DNA of 11,487 nucleotides from Candidatus Latescibacterota bacterium (lineage in GTDB: Bacteria > JAAXHH01 > JABIQT01). The notes below the pieces were generated by a model, which was not told the origin of the DNA, made no database searches, and worked only from the letters and a program-made list of their open reading frames with translations. Shown here one piece after another: positions 311 to 11,378 of this stretch. The stretch lies in the NCBI GenBank assembly GCA_018667995.1, contig JABIQT010000373.1, positions 1-11,487 on the forward strand, in the 5' to 3' direction. How positions within the stretch are numbered: position 1 is the stretch's first letter; each line of letters starts with the position of its first letter. The position numbers were made by a program, and so were the translations under genes.

Positions 311-982
311 ATGACGATCTCGGCGGATACACCTGTAGGCAGGATCGCGGCCGAACATCCGGATGCGGCCCGGGTGTTTGAGAGACATGGCATTGACTAT
401 TGTTGCGGCGGGGATAGCCAGCTCGGCGAGGCATGCGCCCAAAAGGGGGTGGACGCCGGTGTTGCGCTGGCGGAGATTCAGCATGTTATCGACACGGTAG
501 AGGCGCCCGAAGCAAGCTGGGACGAGGCGCCCCTGGCAGATTTGATCGACCACATAGTGGCCACATACCACCGTTCGCTGGATGAAGAACTGCCGCGGCT
601 GATGGCATTAATGGAGAAGGTGGGCAGCGTTCACGGCGAAAAGAATCCCGAGATGTTCGCTGAACTTTCCCGTGTCTACCTGGGCCTCAAGGACGAGTTG
701 GAACACCACATGATGAAAGAAGAAGGCATCCTGTTCCCCATGATCAAGAACGACCAGGGGGCCATGGGAGGCGGCCCGATTTCCTGTATGATGCACGAGC
801 ATGACTCGGCCGGCGCTGCACTGGCCCGGATTCGGGCATTGACGGACGATTATATGGTGCCCGAAGAGGCCTGTAATTCATGGACCGCACTGTGGCACGG
901 CCTCGAAAAGTTGGAAGGAGATCTTCACACGCACATTCACCTCGAAAATAACATCCTCTTTCCAAGAGCTTTGCGCGGATGA
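311..982 (+). CDS. ric: Iron-sulfur cluster repair di-iron protein, RIC/YtfE/ScdA family
   Basis: This is a cytoplasmic di-iron protein of 223 residues, the usual length for RIC proteins, which restore Fe-S clusters damaged by nitric oxide or peroxide. Residues 1-55 form the ScdA_N (DUF542) domain, with PVGRIAAEHPDAARVFERHG followed by the hallmark Cys-Cys pair at 31-32. Residues about 75-220 form the hemerythrin-like bundle. Candidate iron ligands are H81/H87, H133 with E137, H164 (HEHD motif) and H208 with E212, a spacing like that of E. coli YtfE. The ATG at 311 has a strong GGAGG at 301-305 with a 5-nt spacer. The gene stands alone on its strand and is convergent with the next gene. No clear sigma-70 promoter was found; a weak TTG-N8-CAA site lies upstream. 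Family assignment is secure; the physiological trigger is inferred. Confidence 0.95.
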   Translation: MTISADTPVGRIAAEHPDAARVFERHGIDYCCGGDSQLGEACAQKGVDAGVALAEIQHVIDTVEAPEASWDEAPLADLIDHIVATYHRSLDEELPRLMALMEKVGSVHGEKNPEMFAELSRVYLGLKDELEHHMMKEEGILFPMIKNDQGAMGGGPISCMMHEHDSAGAALARIRALTDDYMVPEEACNSWTALWHGLEKLEGDLHTHIHLENNILFPRALRG

Positions 983-2480: not shown

Positions 2481-2568
2481 TCCCATTTACGGACAATTGA
2501 CGGGCGTGATTGCGGACCGTTTGACTTGTAATGCCCTGTAAACACGGTACCTGTGTGTTCCCACTAAA

Positions 2569-2584
2569 TGGCATACCAATTGCG
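2569..2584 (+). promoter_or_regulatory. sigma-54 (RpoN) promoter for the permease gene
   Basis: TGGCATACCAATTGCG has GG at 2570-2571, exactly ten bases, then GC at 2582-2583. It matches the consensus TGGCAY-N5-TTGCW except at the last base. The predicted start of transcription is about 2595, six bases before the ATG at 2601. The position, strand and presence of a sigma-54 activator gene nearby all agree. It should be silent without an ATP-hydrolysing activator. Confidence 0.7.
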
Positions 2585-2600
2585 ATAGTACCACAATTAT

Positions 2601-5084
2601 ATGAACTCTCTACTTCAAGATCTGCGATACACCGTGCGCAGTTTGGCGCAGAAACCCGGTTTCACCGCGGCCGTCATTCTGACGCTGTCTCTCGGCATCG
2701 GAGCGAATACCACGCTCTTCAGTTTGATCAACGCTGTACTGTTGCGCCCGCCTGCCATCGAACGTCCTGACGAGATCGTCGAGCTCTTCACCGGGGATTA
2801 TGACGGGAGAAGATACGGGGCCTCGTCCTATCTCGACTATCTCGATTTTCGCGAACGGATAGAGGGCCTCACGGGTATTGTGGCCTATGCGGTAACGCCG
2901 GTCAGTATGATGAGCGATGGCGCGACCAGCCGCGAGAGCTGCATGCTGACTACGCCTAACTATTTCTCGGTGCTGGGGATCACGCCGCGCCTAGGCAGGT
3001 TTTTCGATTCGGAGGTGTCGGGCGATTTCGAAGCTGATCCTGTGGCGGTGATCGGATACGGAATCTGGCAACGCGTCTACGGAGGGAACTCCGAGATAAT
3101 CGGTCGTTCCATTACACTGAACGGGCAGATCCTAACGGTTATCGGTGTGGCGCCACCAGGATTCTCCGGCACGGATCGTGGAGCTGCTGCTGCCCTGTGG
3201 GCACCCCTGGGATTGGAGCGTCAGTTGACCAGAGCCTCTTATTCCCGGCTCGATCGAGGATCGCCATGGTTACGCTTGCTCGGGCGTCTCAAAGCGGGCA
3301 CATCGGCTGTTGATGTGCAGTCACAACTGGGTGTAATCGCCGGACAGCTGAATCAAGCCTATCCTGAAATCTGGTCCGACGGCGAGGGCCGTCCACGCGC
3401 CGCGACGGTGCTCCCGGAAAGCGAAACCAGATTGCCGATGACCTATCGGGGCGACCTCCTCGACTATATGAGCATGCTCATGGTGGTTGTGGGCCTAGTT
3501 CTCGTGATCGCCTGTGCCAATGTGGCGAACCTCATGCTGGCACGTACCATCGAGCGACGGCGCGAGATAGCCGTTCGGCTGGCCGTCGGCGTCACGAGAT
3601 GGAGACTGATCCGACAGCTGCTTTCTGAGAGTATCCTGCTCTCGCTGGTAGCAGGCGCCTCGGCGCTCCTTGTCATGCTGTGGAGCACGGATCTGCTGAT
3701 GGCATTTCAGAGTCTGCTGCCCGTCCCCATGGTTCTGGATGTGAGCATAGACTGGCGGATACTGGCTTTTACCGGCGGCGTCTCGGTTCTCTCGGGACTG
3801 ATGTTCGGCGTCATTCCTGCATTACAGGCATCCGGAAAGAGCGTAATGCCCATATTGAAGGCGGCGGCTACGGCAGTATCGGGCGGTTCGCCTGGAACTA
3901 TCCGACTTCGTTACGGTCTGGTAATCGTTCAGATATCGCTTTCACTGCTCTTGCTTGCAGGAGCGGGACTCTTCTTGACGAGCCTCCAGCAGGCCCAATC
4001 AGTAGACATAGGATTCAATCCCGACAATACGCTCATTACCTCCTTCGATCTTCACCAGCAAGGCTATGGAACGGAATCGGGGTCGGTGTTTTACTCCGAG
4101 TTACTAGAGCGAATCTCCCGGCTGGCGAACGTCGAGTCGGTCAGTTTGGCTGCCACCGTTCCTCTTGGGGGTGGTCCGGGAGGGCGCATGATATCCTTGG
4201 ACGCCGGTACAGGTGGCTCCGGCGGAGAGATTCTGATGAATCTCGTGGGGCCGGACTATTTCAGGACCACACAGACTCCGCTGGTCTCGGGAAGAGGGTT
4301 TTCATTGCAGGATCGTGTCGGCGCGGCCTATACGATTGTGGTTAACGAGAGTTTTGCGCAGGCTTATCAGGTAGGGCAGGATCCGCTCAATCAGCGGATT
4401 CGTCTGGACATTGTCGGTGAAGGCGCGGAATTCGAGATCATAGGCGTGGCCCGCGACGGTAAGTACCGGACCCTTGAGGAGCGGCCGACACCACTGTTCT
4501 ATCTGCCCATGTTACAGCACATTGAGACGCTAAACAGTCTGCAGACTGCGACCACGCTCCTGGTGCGTACCGCCGTGGACCCTATGGAATTAGAGACCAC
4601 GGTCCGACGCGTGATCGGATCGCTGGACGAGGCATTGGCGCTGTTCAATACGAATACCCTCGCGAATCATATCAGTGTGGCTTATCTGCCCGTACGATTC
4701 GGGAGCACCATGCTCGGTCTTTTTGGTCTACTTGCCCTTTTGATATCGTCAATTGGTCTCTACGGCATCATGGCCTATACCGTGAATCAGCACGCCCACG
4801 GCATTGCCCTCCGCATCGCCCTTGGCGCCCAGCGGATGGATATCCTGAAAATGATTCTCGGGCAAACGCTCCTGGTCACATTCATAGGGATCGGCATAGG
4901 ACTCGCCGTGGCATTCGCCGTGACGCCCGTTCTCACGCGCTACCTGTACGGCGTCACCTCATTGGACCCGTGGGTACTCACGGCCATCGGACTATTGCTT
5001 GCCGGCGTGGCGCTCCTGGCCGGATACCTCCCTGCGCGACGAGCGATGAGTCTGGAGCCCATGCAAGTGTTGCGATATGAATGA
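2601..5084 (+). CDS. ADOP-type duplicated orphan ABC permease (MacB/FtsX-like)
   Basis: This 827-residue inner-membrane protein is a tandem duplication of the MacB periplasmic core plus FtsX permease module. The N-terminus (LLQDLRYTVRSLAQKPGFT...LSLGIGANTTLFS) is the signature of the acidobacterial duplicated orphan permease family. Membrane segments are visible at about 21-47, 290-315, 340-370, 387-410, 435-465, 697-730, 752-780 and 790-812, eight in all, with large periplasmic domains at about 50-285 and 466-690. The ending EPMQVLRYE is typical. MacB-type permeases export macrolides, peptides or lipoproteins or act as mechanotransmitters; the ADOP role is unknown. No ATPase or HlyD-type adaptor gene is in the window, so any ATPase must be encoded elsewhere. 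No Shine-Dalgarno sequence precedes the ATG, yet the family N-terminus fixes this start. A sigma-54 promoter six bases ahead implies a nearly leaderless transcript controlled by the neighbouring activator. Confidence 0.92.
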   Translation: MNSLLQDLRYTVRSLAQKPGFTAAVILTLSLGIGANTTLFSLINAVLLRPPAIERPDEIVELFTGDYDGRRYGASSYLDYLDFRERIEGLTGIVAYAVTPVSMMSDGATSRESCMLTTPNYFSVLGITPRLGRFFDSEVSGDFEADPVAVIGYGIWQRVYGGNSEIIGRSITLNGQILTVIGVAPPGFSGTDRGAAAALWAPLGLERQLTRASYSRLDRGSPWLRLLGRLKAGTSAVDVQSQLGVIAGQLNQAYPEIWSDGEGRPRAATVLPESETRLPMTYRGDLLDYMSMLMVVVGLVLVIACANVANLMLARTIERRREIAVRLAVGVTRWRLIRQLLSESILLSLVAGASALLVMLWSTDLLMAFQSLLPVPMVLDVSIDWRILAFTGGVSVLSGLMFGVIPALQASGKSVMPILKAAATAVSGGSPGTIRLRYGLVIVQISLSLLLLAGAGLFLTSLQQAQSVDIGFNPDNTLITSFDLHQQGYGTESGSVFYSELLERISRLANVESVSLAATVPLGGGPGGRMISLDAGTGGSGGEILMNLVGPDYFRTTQTPLVSGRGFSLQDRVGAAYTIVVNESFAQAYQVGQDPLNQRIRLDIVGEGAEFEIIGVARDGKYRTLEERPTPLFYLPMLQHIETLNSLQTATTLLVRTAVDPMELETTVRRVIGSLDEALALFNTNTLANHISVAYLPVRFGSTMLGLFGLLALLISSIGLYGIMAYTVNQHAHGIALRIALGAQRMDILKMILGQTLLVTFIGIGIGLAVAFAVTPVLTRYLYGVTSLDPWVLTAIGLLLAGVALLAGYLPARRAMSLEPMQVLRYE

Positions 5085-5123
5085 GGGTTAGGTGGTGGGA
5101 TTCCGTAGGGAACGAGACTTAGG

Positions 5124-5160
5124 CGCTCACCTTATCCCTGTTGTCGGATAGCGATGAGCG
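5124..5160 (+). terminator. interrupted stem-loop after the permease gene
   Basis: Nested inverted repeats CGCTCA/TGAGCG (5124-5129, 5155-5160) and TATCC/GGATA (5133-5137, 5146-5150) form a two-part hairpin with an 8-nt loop, 40 bp after the permease stop. No T-run follows, so it could be a weak or factor-assisted terminator, or a chance structure. Confidence 0.3.
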
Positions 5161-5265
5161 GAAGGCGCTGTCCCTTTGCTCTCCCGGCGGCGGCCATTGA
5201 GTGAGGCTGCAATAATCCTTGAGAGTGGTTTGTATAAGCCCAGGACTCATACGTGCCGCTCGGAT

Positions 5266-5291
5266 TGACTCAAAGAAAGGGCAGTGAGTCA
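5266..5291 (-). terminator. inverted repeat downstream of the activator gene
   Basis: TGACTCA (5266-5272) and TGAGTCA (5285-5291) pair perfectly around a 12-nt loop, 70 nt past the end of the minus-strand activator gene. A shorter GTTCG/CGAAC pair (5326-5347) is nearer to the stop. Neither is followed by a T-run. A terminator role is only a guess from position between convergent genes. Confidence 0.2.
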
Positions 5292-5360
5292 TTACGGCAA
5301 ATTGGCAGTCTGGATCCAGGCAAACGTTCGGGTATTTTCGGACGAACTCTTTCCGCCGTC

Positions 5361-6794
5361 CTAGTCGCCGAAGGTATCAATCTCGTACTTATCCCGTAGC
5401 CGTTCGATTCTCTTCCGCTGTGTGGGCGGCAATCCCAGCAGAGCCGCCGCCTTGGATACCTTGCCACCCGATTGTTTCAATGCTGTTCGAACCGCGAGTT
5501 CTTCCAGATCGTCGAGGACATTTGTCTCCGCCTCTGTTTCTCCGTTTTCCTGCAAGAGGTCGCCGATGAAGCCGCTGGCGGAGCTGCTTTTTCTATTTTG
5601 CGGCTGCGCCGAAGCGCGTCGTCCCACTATCTGGGCCGGAAGATCTTTGGGGCGTATGTGCGTTTCATCGCAAATCAAGACTGCACGTTCGATAGCGTTC
5701 TGCAACTCTCTCACATTTCCACGCCACTCGTAGTCCATCAGACTGGCCATCGCCGCTTCAGAAATACTTGATATGTCTCGACCAAATTCAATGGCATATT
5801 TAGAGAGAAAGTACGCAGCCAAATCGGGAATATCTTCGCGCCGGTTCTGTAGGGACGGTAACTCAATAGGAAACACATTCAGACGAAAGTAGAGATCTTC
5901 CAGGAACCGGCCTTCCTCAATCTCCAGTTCCAGGTCGCGATTGGTGGCGGCAATGATCCGCACATCAGTGCTGATGGGAGTCTCACTTCCGATCCGATTG
6001 ATCTCTCCATCCTCGAGTACCCTCAGCAGCTTCACCTGGAAACTCTTCTCCGTGGCCCCGATTTCATCAAGGAGGATCGTGCCCCCGTGGGCCAGTTCAA
6101 ACTTACCCAACTTCATTTTGTCCGCACCGGTAAAGGCATTCTTCTCATGTCCGAACAACTCGCTTTCTATCAGAGTTTCCGGGAGAGCGGTACAGTTGAC
6201 AGGTATAAAGGGGCGATTCTTGCGATCACTGTTACCGTGAATTCGGCGTGCAATCAGCTCCTTTCCTGAGCCCGATGGTCCCAGAAGAAGGACTGTAGCC
6301 GACGTCGTGGCCGCTCGGTCAGCCAGGTTCAGCACAGCAGCCATACCGTCGGAATGTCCGACAATATTCGGTGCTTCGCCCGATGCCTCATCGCGGAGGA
6401 ACGAATTCTCTCTCTTCAACCGAACCCGCTCCATGGCTTTGTCGATGACTACTTTAAGCTGATCCGACTCGTAGTCTTTGGGCACAAAATCAAAGGCGCC
6501 GGCCTTCATGGCCTCGACTGCCCTGTCCACGTTTCCGAAGCCGGTAGAGAGGATCGCCGTTACATCGAGCCCCTCTTTTTCGATCTGGTGCAGTACTTCG
6601 ATGCCATTCATTTCGGGCATTTGCAGATCGAGAATGACGAGGTCGGGAGATACTTCGTGTATGCGTGCGAGTCCTTCCCGACCGTTAGCGGCATGGATGA
6701 CCTCATAGTTATTAGCTTCAAGCCAATCCCCCAGGGACAGCCTGATATCCTCATCATCGTCAACAATCAGTATACGTCCTTTGCGTGATTTCAT
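5361..6794 (-). CDS. NtrC-family sigma-54-dependent response regulator
   Basis: This 477-residue transcription activator should be phosphorylated by a histidine kinase and then use ATP to open sigma-54 promoters. The receiver domain is at about 6-120, with acidic pair D12/D13, phosphoacceptor D56 (LDLQMPEMNG), T84 and K106. The AAA+ domain is at about 143-372: Walker A GPSGSGKE (172-179), Walker B GGTILLDE (237-244), arginine-finger region LYFRLNVFPI (301-310) and WRGNVREL (357-364). The sigma-54 contact loop reads NAFTGA (219-224) instead of GAFTGA. A Fis-type helix-turn-helix lies at about 428-470 (GGKVSKAAALLGL), with an unusually basic second helix. The ATG at 6794 is preferred because the receiver domain begins there and AAAGGT lies 6 nt upstream; the frame remains open to a GTG at 7049. 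The long sensor kinase gene upstream, without a receiver of its own, is the likely partner. A sigma-54 promoter at 7118-7133 suggests self-activation. Confidence 0.94.
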   Translation of the reverse strand: MKSRKGRILIVDDDEDIRLSLGDWLEANNYEVIHAANGREGLARIHEVSPDLVILDLQMPEMNGIEVLHQIEKEGLDVTAILSTGFGNVDRAVEAMKAGAFDFVPKDYESDQLKVVIDKAMERVRLKRENSFLRDEASGEAPNIVGHSDGMAAVLNLADRAATTSATVLLLGPSGSGKELIARRIHGNSDRKNRPFIPVNCTALPETLIESELFGHEKNAFTGADKMKLGKFELAHGGTILLDEIGATEKSFQVKLLRVLEDGEINRIGSETPISTDVRIIAATNRDLELEIEEGRFLEDLYFRLNVFPIELPSLQNRREDIPDLAAYFLSKYAIEFGRDISSISEAAMASLMDYEWRGNVRELQNAIERAVLICDETHIRPKDLPAQIVGRRASAQPQNRKSSSASGFIGDLLQENGETEAETNVLDDLEELAVRTALKQSGGKVSKAAALLGLPPTQRKRIERLRDKYEIDTFGD

Positions 6795-7117
6795 ACGTGA
6801 ACCTTTGCCTCTCGACGGCTTGCTTCTTTCTCCCGGCCGTTCCTTGGATTCAGAAGGAGTTTTTCCGGTGCATGTTTGGGGTAAAGCCTCTATGAGAACC
6901 TCTATAGATTCGGTCCTATTTGGAACCGGTTGAGTATACTCGGATATGAGTCTTGAAATGGGTCTGTCTCCCTGATATAGAAATGTATGGTCACATTGGC
7001 AGTTAGCGATTTCGCGATGCAGGTACGACAGGCGGAAGAAATTCGTCACTCAAACAACTTGGAAGCGACAAAGGCACAGCCCCCTTCGTATCTTTCTGCC
7101 TCAATCAAACCTATATA

Positions 7118-7133
7118 TGCAGGGATTGTGCCA
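7118..7133 (-). promoter_or_regulatory. sigma-54 (RpoN) promoter for the activator gene
   Basis: Read on the minus strand, TGGCACAATCCCTGCA has a perfect -24 element TGGCAC, ten bases between GG (7132-7131) and GC (7120-7119), and a -12 element CTGCA that differs from consensus at one base. Transcription would begin near 7107, giving a 313-nt leader to the ATG at 6794 or 57 nt to the alternative GTG at 7049. Its position ahead of a sigma-54 activator gene suggests positive autoregulation. Confidence 0.65.
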
Positions 7134-7241
7134 TGCCCTCACTTTTCTATATTATCGTGATTAATCGTTTAACCACAAGCTGTTACAGAGTAAGAATTAT
7201 GACTGATGATGTTTGTGGATTGGAGAGCGTGGTAGATCATC

Positions 7242-7285
7242 TGGTCGATAATGACCAAATACGATTAGTTGGTCATTATCGACCA
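7242..7285. promoter_or_regulatory. paired inverted palindromes, probable activator sites (or 3' hairpin of the kinase gene)
   Basis: A perfect 17-bp inverted repeat: left arm TGGTCGATAATGACCAA at 7242-7258, right arm TTGGTCATTATCGACCA at 7269-7285, loop 10 nt. Each arm is itself a near-palindrome (TGGTC-N6-GACCA), so the element is two 16-bp sites facing each other, centres 28 bp apart. They sit about 135-178 bp upstream of the start predicted from the sigma-54 promoter, as expected for NtrC-type enhancer sites. The element also directly abuts the kinase stop codon and could form a strong RNA hairpin there, although no T-run follows. Confidence 0.55.
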
Positions 7286-10200
7286 CTATGTATTAGGTGT
7301 AGATGATAGGGGAAGCGTAAACTCGAATGTAGCGCCGGCGCTCACTCTACTACTTACACTGATTTTACCGCCATGATGGCTGACCAGCTCTCTGGCGATG
7401 GCCAGTCCCAAGCCGATTCCTTTGCTCGATTTCATGCTAGAGTCCACCCGGAATCCGGGCTCGAACACTAGAGGCAAATGCTCGTCCACAATGCCTTCTC
7501 CGGTATCAATGACTGCTATCTGCGCGAATTCATGATTCGTTACAGTACGCACGGTTACCGAACCAGTAGGCGGCGTATGTTCGATAGCGTTGGAAATCAG
7601 GTTGGCCAGGATCCGATGCACCTGATCTGGATCTCCTAGTATCCGAGTGGAGACATCCGAATGATCCAGTGATAAGATGACGCCCTTCTCCTCTGCCGAC
7701 GGCCCATATGAACTCATCACGTCCTGAATCACCGGAATGAGAGCAATAGGTGATTTTGCTACACGCTCGGGGCTGATCATCATGGACTGAAGGTCCAGCA
7801 GATTGGTGATAAATCGGGTGAGCCGATCGTTGTTGTTCTGCATCCTGCGCAGATAATCCACATGTTTATCGGAGAGATCACCACCGATGCTCTCGAGCAT
7901 GTTTCGAGCCATAAGTTTGTTGGCGCCAACCGGGTTCTTCAGGTCGTGTACGATCTGTGCTACCAGAGTGTTCCTGAGCCGATTTAGCTTCTCAAGCTCT
8001 GAGTTGGCTTCGGCGAGGTTTGAATTGGAGATCAGTAGTGCATGATTTGTATGGTCAAGCTCCTGGTTTGTTGATCGAAGTCTCATGCCGCCTTTTACCA
8101 GTCTGCTGCCCTGCCAGGTAAGCGCAAGTACCAGAATGCCGATGACCGCATAAAATCCTATACGCTCGTAGGGAAGATGGACATTCACGTCAACTACGGC
8201 CGGCTCCAATGAAAACGACATGTTTCTGTCTATCGCTACGACCTCGAACCTATGATCACCCCGCGGTACGTCCAGATACTCAACACGGTTCTCACGCGTT
8301 GTCCTCCAGTCATCCTCCACTCCCGTCAAACGATACTTGTACAGCATGCCGCTGGGGCGGGTCTTCAGACTGGCCCCATGATATTCGAAAACCATCAGGC
8401 CAGGGCTTTCCGGAAGGCTTAGCGGGTTTCCGCCTTCATAGCGTTGGTCAAAGGTCAATGCATCGAAATTGACAGTTGGATTACCAGAATTACTAGGGCT
8501 ATAGCGGGTCAGACCATTTCTCGTGCCAAACCAGAAGTCGTCGTCCTGGGCCTGCAGCAGGCAGATTACCTCAATGTCAGCGAGGCCATCCCCGATGGTT
8601 AGGGTCTGGAAGACATCACCGTCATATCGGGTTACCCCCGAAGGCGAACCAAGCCACAGGTTGCCATCAGAGTCCTCGATAATGGATGAAATGAGATCGT
8701 CTGCCAGTCCATCTTTCTTGCCAAACGAAATCCACTCGGCGCCGTCATAGCGACTCAGGCCTTGCGTGGTTCCGAACCAGAGCAATCCTTGGCTATCTTC
8801 CATAATCGCCCAGATCAGATCACCTGCCAGTCCATCCTTCTCAGAGTAATTTTGCCAGCTATTACCGTCATAGCGACTCACTCCTCTGGTCGTGCCGAAC
8901 CACATTGTGCCGCCCGATTGCTCTTCAATTGAATACACGAAATCGGAAGCAAGGCCATCCCGCTCACTGAAGTTCGTCCAATCCGCGCCATCCAATCTGC
9001 GGAGTCCATCACCCTCGGTTCCGAACCACACCACACCGGAACTATCGCCCAATATGGTAAATACGTGATCAGATGCCAAACCGTCATCAGTGGCAAAAGA
9101 CTTCCAACGCCTACCATCAAAGCGGCTGATTTCGCCACCTTTCGATTCCTGACGATCCTTAAATGAGCTCACCCAGACGTCACCCGATGGGGTGACGGTA
9201 ACATCTTTAACCAGATTTTCGGCGAGGCCGGCCTCACTGGTCAGTGTCTGCCAGCTGTTGCCGTCAAATCGACTCAGTCCGGATTCTGTGCTGGACCATA
9301 TTGTGCCATCCTGATCCTGAGCGATCGAAGTGATTCTTCCCCGGCCACTACCTGAACCTGCAGAATAGGATCTCCACTCCCGGTCGAATCGGCTGACGCC
9401 GCCTCCATTGGCGATCCACAGGCATCCAGTTTCGTCCTCTCCTATGGCCCAGACCTCGTTGCTCCCCAGGTACTTGGGCGCAGCGTAAGTCCTCCAGTTC
9501 GACCCGTCGAAGCTTGATAATCCTCCGCCCCTCGTACCGACCCACAGGACTCCGTGCCGATCTCGGAATATAGATCGTACCTCGTCGCCAGCGAGGCCGT
9601 CACTTGTAGTGTAGGAGTGCCACGTCGCGTTGTCAAAGTGGCTGATACCTGCGCGAGTGCCAATCCACAGATCGTCTTCTCCCTCCACCATGATGGTCTG
9701 GACTTCGTTACTAACCAGGCCATCGCTGACGGTATTGGAACTCCAGGATGTACCATCGAAGCGACTGATGCCGCCTCCGAGCGTGCCGAAGAGCATAGCG
9801 CCCCCGGATTCCTCGGCAATTGCATAGACCGTATTGTGCGCCAGGCCACTGTCTGTATTAAATGTCGTCCAGGTGTTTTCGTCGTATCGCGTAGCGCCTC
9901 CTCCGATGGTTCCGAACCAGAGGTCCCCGGATTGGGATGATTTTATAGTATAGATGTCTTTGCTTCCGAGCCCGTCCTCCATAGTGTAGGTGGTCCATTG
10001 ATTTCCGTCGTAGCGACTGACCCCCATTCCAACCGTACCAAACCAAAAGTCCCCGCTTGCATCATTAGTAACAGTCAATATCTGATTCCCTGACACGCCC
10101 TCTGCCGTCGTAATAGTGGACCAGTTTTGTCCATCGTATCGGCTTGCGCCCCCACCAAAAGTACCGAACCACACTCCGCCGGGATCGAAATGCAATGCCA

Positions 10201-10441
10201 TTACGGAGTTATTGGTTAATCCATTGGTCTTATCATAGAGGTACCACGTCCCCTCCAAATATTCATCTTGCACGATCTTAGGCACCGAGCCTGGGACAGA
10301 TCGCCCAGTACCTGGACCGGCGAAGGCCGGGTGCAGAAAAAAGGACAGCATCAAAATGATAAAGGTTGCCGCTCGTGTTTCCAGGGGCGGAAGGAGGCTG
10401 CCCGAGGGGCGCCTCCTATACTTTGGGGTTCTATATATCAT
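7286..10441 (-). CDS. Two-component-propeller sensor histidine kinase (periplasmic sensor, no receiver)
   Basis: The protein has 1051 residues from the ATG at 10441. A basic N-region and hydrophobic stretch end in HPAFA-G at about 41, a signal peptide. Residues about 65-650 hold some 14 two-component-regulator propeller blades of about 41 residues (motif GGxSRYDGxxW...DGL...V..I), enough for two seven-bladed propellers. A Y_Y_Y domain follows (about 655-757), then a membrane segment at about 761-777, a coiled linker (about 790-825), HisKA with H832 in the H-box VHDLKNP, and HATPase_c with N951, D979 (DTGEG) and GIGLGL at 1008-1013. This resembles hybrid sensors for glycans in Bacteroidetes, but it lacks the receiver and AraC output, so the downstream NtrC-type protein is the likely phosphoacceptor. 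An ATG at 10522 would add 27 residues; 10441 is preferred because it gives a better signal peptide and overlaps a preceding frame by ATGA. No good Shine-Dalgarno sequence was seen. The ligand is unknown. Confidence 0.93.
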   Translation of the reverse strand: MIYRTPKYRRRPSGSLLPPLETRAATFIILMLSFFLHPAFAGPGTGRSVPGSVPKIVQDEYLEGTWYLYDKTNGLTNNSVMALHFDPGGVWFGTFGGGASRYDGQNWSTITTAEGVSGNQILTVTNDASGDFWFGTVGMGVSRYDGNQWTTYTMEDGLGSKDIYTIKSSQSGDLWFGTIGGGATRYDENTWTTFNTDSGLAHNTVYAIAEESGGAMLFGTLGGGISRFDGTSWSSNTVSDGLVSNEVQTIMVEGEDDLWIGTRAGISHFDNATWHSYTTSDGLAGDEVRSIFRDRHGVLWVGTRGGGLSSFDGSNWRTYAAPKYLGSNEVWAIGEDETGCLWIANGGGVSRFDREWRSYSAGSGSGRGRITSIAQDQDGTIWSSTESGLSRFDGNSWQTLTSEAGLAENLVKDVTVTPSGDVWVSSFKDRQESKGGEISRFDGRRWKSFATDDGLASDHVFTILGDSSGVVWFGTEGDGLRRLDGADWTNFSERDGLASDFVYSIEEQSGGTMWFGTTRGVSRYDGNSWQNYSEKDGLAGDLIWAIMEDSQGLLWFGTTQGLSRYDGAEWISFGKKDGLADDLISSIIEDSDGNLWLGSPSGVTRYDGDVFQTLTIGDGLADIEVICLLQAQDDDFWFGTRNGLTRYSPSNSGNPTVNFDALTFDQRYEGGNPLSLPESPGLMVFEYHGASLKTRPSGMLYKYRLTGVEDDWRTTRENRVEYLDVPRGDHRFEVVAIDRNMSFSLEPAVVDVNVHLPYERIGFYAVIGILVLALTWQGSRLVKGGMRLRSTNQELDHTNHALLISNSNLAEANSELEKLNRLRNTLVAQIVHDLKNPVGANKLMARNMLESIGGDLSDKHVDYLRRMQNNNDRLTRFITNLLDLQSMMISPERVAKSPIALIPVIQDVMSSYGPSAEEKGVILSLDHSDVSTRILGDPDQVHRILANLISNAIEHTPPTGSVTVRTVTNHEFAQIAVIDTGEGIVDEHLPLVFEPGFRVDSSMKSSKGIGLGLAIARELVSHHGGKISVSSRVSAGATFEFTLPLSSTPNT
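8498..10249 (-). repeat. about 14 propeller-blade coding repeats
   Basis: This part of the kinase gene repeats a unit of roughly 123 bp encoding one propeller blade. On the plus strand the repeat shows as recurring near-identical pieces such as GTxCCGAACCA and CCGTCATAGCGACT. The units have diverged, so they are a protein-level repeat with only partial DNA identity. The seventh blade lacks the DGL signature and carries a Gly/Ser-rich tail, which may mark the seam between two seven-bladed domains. Confidence 0.85.
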
Positions 10442-10698
10442 AGATTTCTGACATCTCGTGGAATAGAGGCCTTTGGTACAAAGACTGATTGGTTTTGTGC
10501 CGCCATCCGAACGCATCGGCACACGGTAATCTGGGATCCGATTGAGACGACCATCCCGCCGTCGCCGGGCCTGCTAAAATACGCATAAACCATTCGTCGT
10601 TTCGAATGGGTAGAGTCCAGATCGAGCGTGCCTCGGTAATCCATCCTGAACAGGCCCTTATATATGTATAGCAGATCTTCCTCCCAATTCGCTGCCAT
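10438..10698 (-). CDS. Small unidentified ORF translationally coupled to the sensor kinase
   Basis: An 86-codon frame starts at ATG 10698, and its TGA (10440-10438) overlaps the preferred kinase ATG (10441-10439) as ATGA, the classic arrangement for translational coupling. The product is mixed in composition, with two cysteines close together (VCRCVRM, about 59-65), no signal peptide and no membrane segment; no family is recognised. Codon use looks ordinary. It lies about 120 nt after the predicted start of transcription from the 10822-10849 promoter. No Shine-Dalgarno sequence precedes the ATG. It could be a real small protein, a leader that controls kinase translation, or a chance open frame. 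Confidence 0.35.
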   Translation of the reverse strand: MAANWEEDLLYIYKGLFRMDYRGTLDLDSTHSKRRMVYAYFSRPGDGGMVVSIGSQITVCRCVRMAAQNQSVFVPKASIPRDVRNL

Positions 10699-10935: not shown

Positions 10936-11171
10936 TCACACCCAATGGGATCGGTCAAACCGTCTGCAGGTATCACATACTAGCTGCTCGTTGATATTCT
11001 TCCCTTCTTGATACATCTGCCTCTCTTCCGCAATTCGCGGCGTTCCATCGTAGTCCGGATATCAGGACACTTACCCCAATCGTAGCCCTGATGCAAAGGC
11101 ACCATATAGACTGCCGCACGGCAAGTACGCAGACAAACGGTTGGATCTCTGGCCGATAACGGCCAAAACGC
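10936..11171 (-). pseudogene. possible decayed gene in two overlapping frames
   Basis: On the minus strand one frame is open from 11171 to a TAG at 10980 (with DPTVCLRTC and GYDWGKCPD), and a second frame, open from 11061 to a TGA at 10936, continues in a protein-like way (EERQMYQEGKNINEQLVCDTC). Joined by a frameshift near 11050-11065 they would give a Cys-rich, possibly zinc-binding piece of about 75 residues. The second frame also has an internal ATG (11016) that would give 26 residues ending in RSHWV. No family is recognised and both pieces could be chance. Confidence 0.2.
11150..11165. promoter_or_regulatory. single palindrome related to the 7242-7285 sites
   Basis: TGGCCGATAACGGCCA is a perfect 6-4-6 palindrome around ATAA. 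It differs from TGGTCGATAATGACCA at three positions, and the changes keep or restore symmetry (T-A to C-G at positions 4 and 13; T to C at 11). This suggests the same binding protein. It lies about 300 bp upstream of the predicted kinase promoter. Confidence 0.4.
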
Positions 11172-11378
11172 CTATCGAGGCCCGTTGAAATTGGACGGTA
11201 TGGCTGTGCGGGTCGTCAACTGTTGAATGGGACCGATTGATTTGATCAATTTCGAACTAATTGAAAATACGAAAGTAATGCCGATATATGGATGGGCATA
11301 TGGAAATGCAGAAGGCGATTGGCACGCTATGTGATGTAGGATCAGTGATAGGCGGATACGGTATAGCGGGAGACAGCG

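Follow-up and report, generated by a model that had tools for sequence, protein, structure and literature searches.

Genes and predicted sigma-54 promoters

The DNA analyzed here, hereafter the window, is a contig (C213) of 11,487 nt taken in full from a genome (G000) of 6.06 Mb that is 85% complete (Table 1). Its permease belongs to the acidobacterial duplicated orphan permeases (ADOPs), which some genomes contain in many copies and for which we know of no settled function. The protein matches the TIGR03434 profile over its entire length (1-803 of 803) with 804 bits against a curated cut-off of 622, and it contains two MacB_PCD and two FtsX stretches. No ATPase gene was found within the window, so that the permease counts as an orphan there; ADOP paralogs on another contig of the same genome (C327) and on contig C220 of a second genome (G001) adjoin a LolD-type ATPase. 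The permease gene is convergent with that of an NtrC-type activator. In the sensor kinase we detected Reg_prop (E 2.4e-50), HisKA and HATPase_c, with Y_Y_Y slightly below its cut-off (25.0 vs 26.6) and no receiver domain. All three genes are present as described in the initial annotation, which had recognized a propeller kinase lacking a receiver, an NtrC-type activator and a convergent ADOP.

Table 1. Genes and predicted regulatory features of the window
Feature	Position	Strand	Details
Iron-sulfur repair gene	311-982	+	
Enolase-superfamily gene	2373-988	-	
Putative upstream activator site	2481-2495	+	TCCCATTTACGGACA; 88 bp upstream of -24 box
Predicted ADOP sigma-54 promoter	2568-2584	+	TGGCATACCAATTGCG (2569-2584); -24/-12, GG-N10-GC; PWM 12.0
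ADOP permease, 827 aa	2601-5084	+	TIGR03434; MacB_PCD-FtsX twice; alignment A1
NtrC-type activator	6794-5361	-	REC-AAA+-HTH
Predicted activator-gene sigma-54 promoter	7118-7134	-	TGGCACAATCCCTGCA (7133-7118); PWM 13.8
Dyad, TGGTC-N6-GACCA	7242-7257	.	TGGTCGATAATGACCA; ahead of NtrC gene
Second dyad, TGGTC-N6-GACCA	7270-7285	.	TGGTCATTATCGACCA; ahead of NtrC gene
Sensor kinase	~10441-7286	-	propeller / Y_Y_Y / TM / HisKA / HATPase_c
Third dyad, TGGYC-type	11150-11165	.	TGGCCGATAACGGCCA

Two further observations concern the kinase gene. An 86-aa reading frame at 10438-10698 (-), which gave no match in a Pfam search, has a stop codon overlapping the kinase start codon (ATGA), and this arrangement suggests a translationally coupled gene upstream of the kinase. 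A long inverted repeat past the kinase stop was considered as an intrinsic terminator and disfavoured, because no T run follows it and because the third dyad at 11150 stands single.

Both predicted promoters carry GG-N10-GC with near-consensus -24 and -12 boxes, and the genome encodes RpoN, seen as a C-terminal fragment that opens contig C643. Because the weight matrix (PWM) only approximates the published consensus, its scores are not exact in absolute terms; comparisons with controls are unaffected. The activator site is the top-scoring one of the window. The proposal of the initial annotation that sigma-54 promoters precede both activator and permease is supported, although their placement needs correcting: the activator site really lies ~320 nt before the likely ATG, and the permease leader would be only ~6 nt long. 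More specifically, the ADOP ATG stands 16 nt past its sigma-54 site, transcription is predicted to start at ~2595, and this predicted leader contains no Shine-Dalgarno sequence. Sigma-54 boxes 12-40 nt from an ADOP start codon recur at five other loci (L395, L400, L177, L174 and L239), and at these and in the window the -12 boxes stand 12-30 nt ahead of the start codon; very short mRNA leaders may be normal at ADOPs of this kind. Chance would yield either window site ~0.003-0.008 times per 300 bp of upstream sequence and 0.2-0.6 times over the whole window on both strands, so that position matters.

Across the genome, the pattern TGGCAYRN4TTGC has 39 matches, compared with 12 in the reversed control. 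Four of the 39 directly precede ADOP-like permease genes (C213, C624, C409 and C704), to which a weight-matrix scan adds C404 (16.0) and, weaker, C1127 (11.9); given 39 sites in 6 Mb and ~20 permease starts that could be scored, far fewer than one such coincidence would be expected at random. Among the other genes downstream of these sites are a MacA-type adaptor (C249, by Pfam), receiver proteins (a receiver-phosphatase by Pfam, the others by eye) and, by eye, pilin-like, chain-length-type polysaccharide and universal stress proteins. This range of downstream genes fits the earlier idea that the bacterial exterior is under sigma-54 control (PMC3162934), as well as the predicted sigma-54 enrichment at COG0577/COG1136 permeases and ATPases of Gammaproteobacteria, Opitutia and Bacteroidia (PLoS One 2025, PMC12316311).

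An upstream element at ADOP and MacA promoters

The putative activator site of the ADOP is one instance of an element with the family consensus TCCC-N5-CGRACA, whose expected position is ~57-107 bp upstream of the -24 box, a range into which the spacing in the window falls. The same element stands at equal distance at the promoters of the MacA gene (C249) and of a second lone ADOP (C404) in the same genome, and at that of a MacA-LolD-ADOP operon in G001. When 44 sigma-54 upstream regions were compared, the closest partner of TCCCATTTACGGACA was the C249 MacA promoter (TCCCATTTACGAACA), and the next-best partners were other permease promoters. Motif sampling in eight permease/adaptor promoters reached an information content of 12.8 at width 14 (null maximum 11.9) and of 15.1 at width 18 (null maximum 13.4). 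Promoter alignment of C213, C249, C404 and the G001 MacA operon gave 9 of 15 columns in common at -88, compared with a maximum of 5 among 60 random sigma-54 promoter quadruples and 40 shuffles. The composite TCCCN5SGRACA-N60-90-TGGCAY occurs in the 6.06 Mb only at the C213 ADOP, the C249 MacA and the C404 ADOP (reversed control, 1), and in G001 at the MacA operon and one other place; as the motif was derived from those very promoters, the informative part of this search is the lack of further matches.

In G001, a lone receiver gene points away from the MacA-LolD-ADOP operon, and the region between them (L151, contig C220, 2918-3086) holds two sigma-54 sites that share a single TCCC-N5-CGRACA element. 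Three divergent permeases outside TIGR03434 (C409, C704 and C1127) have sigma-54 sites and match the element only with 1-2 mismatches, and for this reason we place them outside the core regulon. An AGAATC-N5-GATTCT dyad upstream of the ADOP was rejected as a regulatory element, being absent from the other promoters. In the literature we found no published report of a TCCC-N5-CGRACA enhancer or of its activator.

The element, fixed from the four promoters, was then tested in 80 loci (~2.3 Mb of strand sequence) that a scan of GTDB genomes with an ADOP alignment had yielded from Acidobacteriota, Verrucomicrobiota, Gemmatimonadota and Myxococcota. Nine composites were found at 0-1 mismatch, and each of them precedes an ADOP, one as part of a PadR-ADOP pair; the reversed sequence contained one. 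Since a looser pattern had been examined in these loci beforehand, the test was not fully blind. Considering sigma-54 sites with a PWM of 11 or more, the element was present at 9/20 of those near ADOP, MacA or LolD starts and at 5/124 elsewhere (Fisher p 4e-6), and most of the latter five appear to precede an ADOP, PadR-ADOP or MacA gene whose start the script did not recognize.

A further genome (G043), not assigned to the window's phylum, has sigma-54 sites of PWM 13 or more at 5/11 ADOPs (control, 0). De novo motif discovery in six of its promoters returned [GT]TCCC-N5-CGRACA, with an information content of 14.8 against a null maximum of 12.7. The element is sometimes doubled there, with copies ~22 bp apart, and within this set it also precedes an operon encoding an NtrC of the ADOP-linked type described below. 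No other result speaks as strongly for the element being real as this de novo rediscovery.

Sigma-54 control of all ADOPs was rejected. A strong site (PWM 12 or more) was present at only 7/183 ADOPs in other phyla and at 0/19 in genome G021; most ADOPs of the 80 loci have no such promoter, and most ADOPs elsewhere are without the element. In a family of the same order (f3), RpoN was found in 12/13 genomes searched; the sigma-54 pattern was little or not at all enriched over the reversed control in one genus (g3), and no site was seen ahead of the permease loci examined.

These data also bear on whether the sigma-54-like string before the ADOP might be a product of chance with no regulatory meaning. 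For the site by itself, chance predicts 0.6 occurrences in the window, and the resulting leader would be very short. Against this, the composite is specific on the scale of the whole genome and recurs across phyla, and we regard a chance origin as highly improbable. The element, the promoter, their co-occurrence and their specificity are what the sequence itself shows.

The neighbouring two-component system

The initial annotation had proposed that the propeller kinase phosphorylates the adjoining NtrC, which would then activate both its own gene and the ADOP. This circuit is consistent with the adjacency of the genes, with the sigma-54 sites at activator and permease promoters alike, and with TCCAATCCACAAACA, a degenerate ADOP-type element with 2 mismatches that the NtrC promoter carries at -90; in addition, no other activator was located in the part of the assembly read. 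The upstream elements of the two promoters nevertheless differ. In front of the NtrC gene, two dyads lie ~108-152 bp upstream of the -24 box. The assembly contains just three mismatch-free copies of TGGTC-N6-GACCA, all in C213, and the best match to it at the ADOP promoter has 6 mismatches. From their position, the two dyads are probably the site at which the window's NtrC regulates its own gene, and the ADOP shares another element with MacA and ADOP promoters. Several unrelated sigma-54 sites of the genome match the ADOP element with 2 mismatches, as the NtrC promoter does. Moreover, the HTH of the window's NtrC is without the SRSALYRR helix of the ADOP-linked NtrCs described below, yet the element is near-identical across phyla. 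A weaker sigma-54-like site at 11319-11335 (+) was observed 154 bp past the third dyad, pointing off the contig end; together they may represent one more target for the window's NtrC.

The NtrC transcript would have a leader of ~310 nt (6795-7107, -) between the sigma-54 promoter and the likely ATG. The reading frame is open upstream to a GTG at 7049, so an in-frame extension is possible, and a structured leader RNA was sought in Rfam with no match. In the protein, the Sigma54_activat AAA+ domain scores 220 bits and the Fis-type HTH_8 is marginal (22.3 vs 22). The GAFTGA loop reads NAFTGA in the window and GAFTNA in the G001 ortholog, with the FT core kept, and the FREDLYYRL motif reads FLEDLYFRL and FLQDLYYRL, respectively, both without the first arginine. 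From these sequences, the two proteins look like a divergent activator subfamily. The sigma-54 site and the tandem upstream dyads resemble those of autoregulated NtrC-type two-component systems, from which the window's NtrC differs by its deviating AAA+ motifs and by 3 extra residues inserted into the HTH.

The kinase/NtrC pair has its nearest relative on contig C38 of G001 (NtrC identity 54-55%). The propeller kinase there is extended at its N-terminus, with no membrane segment evident, and the genes for kinase and regulator are so close together that a separate promoter of the window's kind would not fit between them. No ADOP adjoins this pair, no NtrC or kinase gene was found beside the other sigma-54-preceded permeases of the window's genome on their contigs, and NtrC-like matches lie near only 13/183 ADOPs in other phyla. 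Taken with the 7/183 above, these observations mean that the three-gene set expected by the initial annotation is not conserved, the G001 ortholog without ADOP speaking against it as a unit, and this agrees in part with what the initial annotation itself had named as refuting its circuit. We give control of the ADOP by the neighbouring pair little probability. Instead, propeller kinase and NtrC would form a system apart, in which the TGGTC-N6-GACCA dyads serve to regulate the system's NtrC gene.

A candidate export regulon and its activator

In several phyla, MacA/LolD/ADOP clusters contain or adjoin a gene for a distinct NtrC, usually followed by a membrane kinase gene (L173, L175, L204, L213, L223 and, in G043, L392). 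These ADOP-linked NtrCs combine the receiver motif DLNYARDTTSG with the DNA-binding helix LGLSRSALYRR and are 61-74% identical among themselves and 35-41% to the window's NtrC, which stands outside the subfamily, with DLQMPEMNG and LGLPPTQRKRIERL in place of those two motifs. In the window's own genome, a receiver domain of the ADOP-linked type is fused to a SpoIIE-type phosphatase (L143, contig C1, 4284-5519, -), with a strong sigma-54 site ahead and an ADOP ~2 kb away.

Related activators, 47-49% identical to the ADOP-linked one, are encoded in adaptor-ATPase-permease-NtrC-kinase operons of Rahnella aceris (pRAHAQ01) and of a Pseudoalteromonas xiamenensis plasmid. In these MacA/LolD/FtsX operons, too, a sigma-54-like site stands 33-38 nt ahead of the adaptor gene, and dyads that contain TCCC are found upstream. 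They differ in that permease, adaptor and activator are together, whereas in the window they are apart, and in the right half of the dyad, GGGA in the gammaproteobacterial copies and CGRACA here. The operons at L420 (Rahnella aceris pRAHAQ01, 5482-12704) and L419 (5486-12672) adjoin what look like natural-product genes. From the gene linkage in MacA/LolD/ADOP clusters, the element at the NtrC operon of G043 and these related operons, we assign the element to the ADOP-linked NtrC subfamily.

Another enhancer-binding protein, encoded at an unlinked place, may have replaced the ADOP-linked NtrC in the window's phylum while sigma-54 and the element were kept. Indeed, the G001 MacA operon adjoins a lone receiver gene and not an NtrC, and no DLNYARDTTSG-type NtrC gene was located in the part of the window's assembly or in the G001 contigs that were read. 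This negative search covers part of the two genomes, and the near-identity of the element to that of genomes with an ADOP-linked NtrC points to conservation of the DNA-binding helix; such a replacement therefore seems to us unlikely, if marginally less so than control by the neighbouring kinase.

We consider it probable that the window's ADOP is a satellite of a sigma-54-dependent MacA/LolD/ADOP export regulon under an ADOP-linked NtrC, with the neighbouring two-component system separate and autoregulated. RNA polymerase with sigma-54 would transcribe the ADOP from its predicted promoter once a bacterial enhancer-binding protein, for which the ADOP-linked NtrCs are the likeliest source, remodels the closed complex from the upstream element. 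The C249 MacA gene and the lone ADOP of C404 would be under the same enhancer/promoter pair. MacA is the probable head of a MacA-LolD-ADOP-ADOP operon split between C249 and C327, two contigs that we join across the break because of the gene order in G001, and at least one MacA-LolD-ADOP-NtrC-kinase operon of other bacteria carries the same element. It is the pair common to ADOP and MacA that would make the window's ADOP a satellite permease of the regulon, which probably borrows ATPase and adaptor in trans. From sequence we infer the binding of the protein, the identity of the activator, the sharing of subunits and the export function. Compared with other ADOPs of TIGR03434, the window permease is alike in its full-length match above cut-off and in having no adjoining ATPase, and differs by a promoter architecture common to the MacA adaptor gene; it is therefore probably not functionally orphan.

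More broadly, an ADOP/MacA export regulon may be conserved across several phyla, among them at least Acidobacteriota, Verrucomicrobiota and that of the window, and be defined by the enhancer, a dedicated subfamily of NtrC activators and a sigma-54 promoter with a very short leader. Lone ADOPs would then be permease subunits that can replace one another and are induced along with a single adaptor/ATPase core; to this generalization as a whole we give even chances. Sigma-54 control of FtsX-like permeases was already predicted for the three groups named above (2025, PMC12316311); the portion of that study available to us names no enhancer element or cognate activator, and Acidobacteria do not figure in its text.

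As a caution, a two-component system adjoining a sigma-54 gene is no evidence of wiring. The view of the initial annotation that the promoter offers a handle on ADOP function gains support, as a common enhancer and promoter link an orphan ADOP with the gene for a MacA adaptor and link ADOPs of other phyla with a specific NtrC and kinase. Two questions become concrete, namely which envelope signal turns on the exporter set and whether lone ADOPs all work with one shared ATPase/adaptor core, and since relatives of the activator occur in cultivable bacteria such as Rahnella, the regulon is testable.
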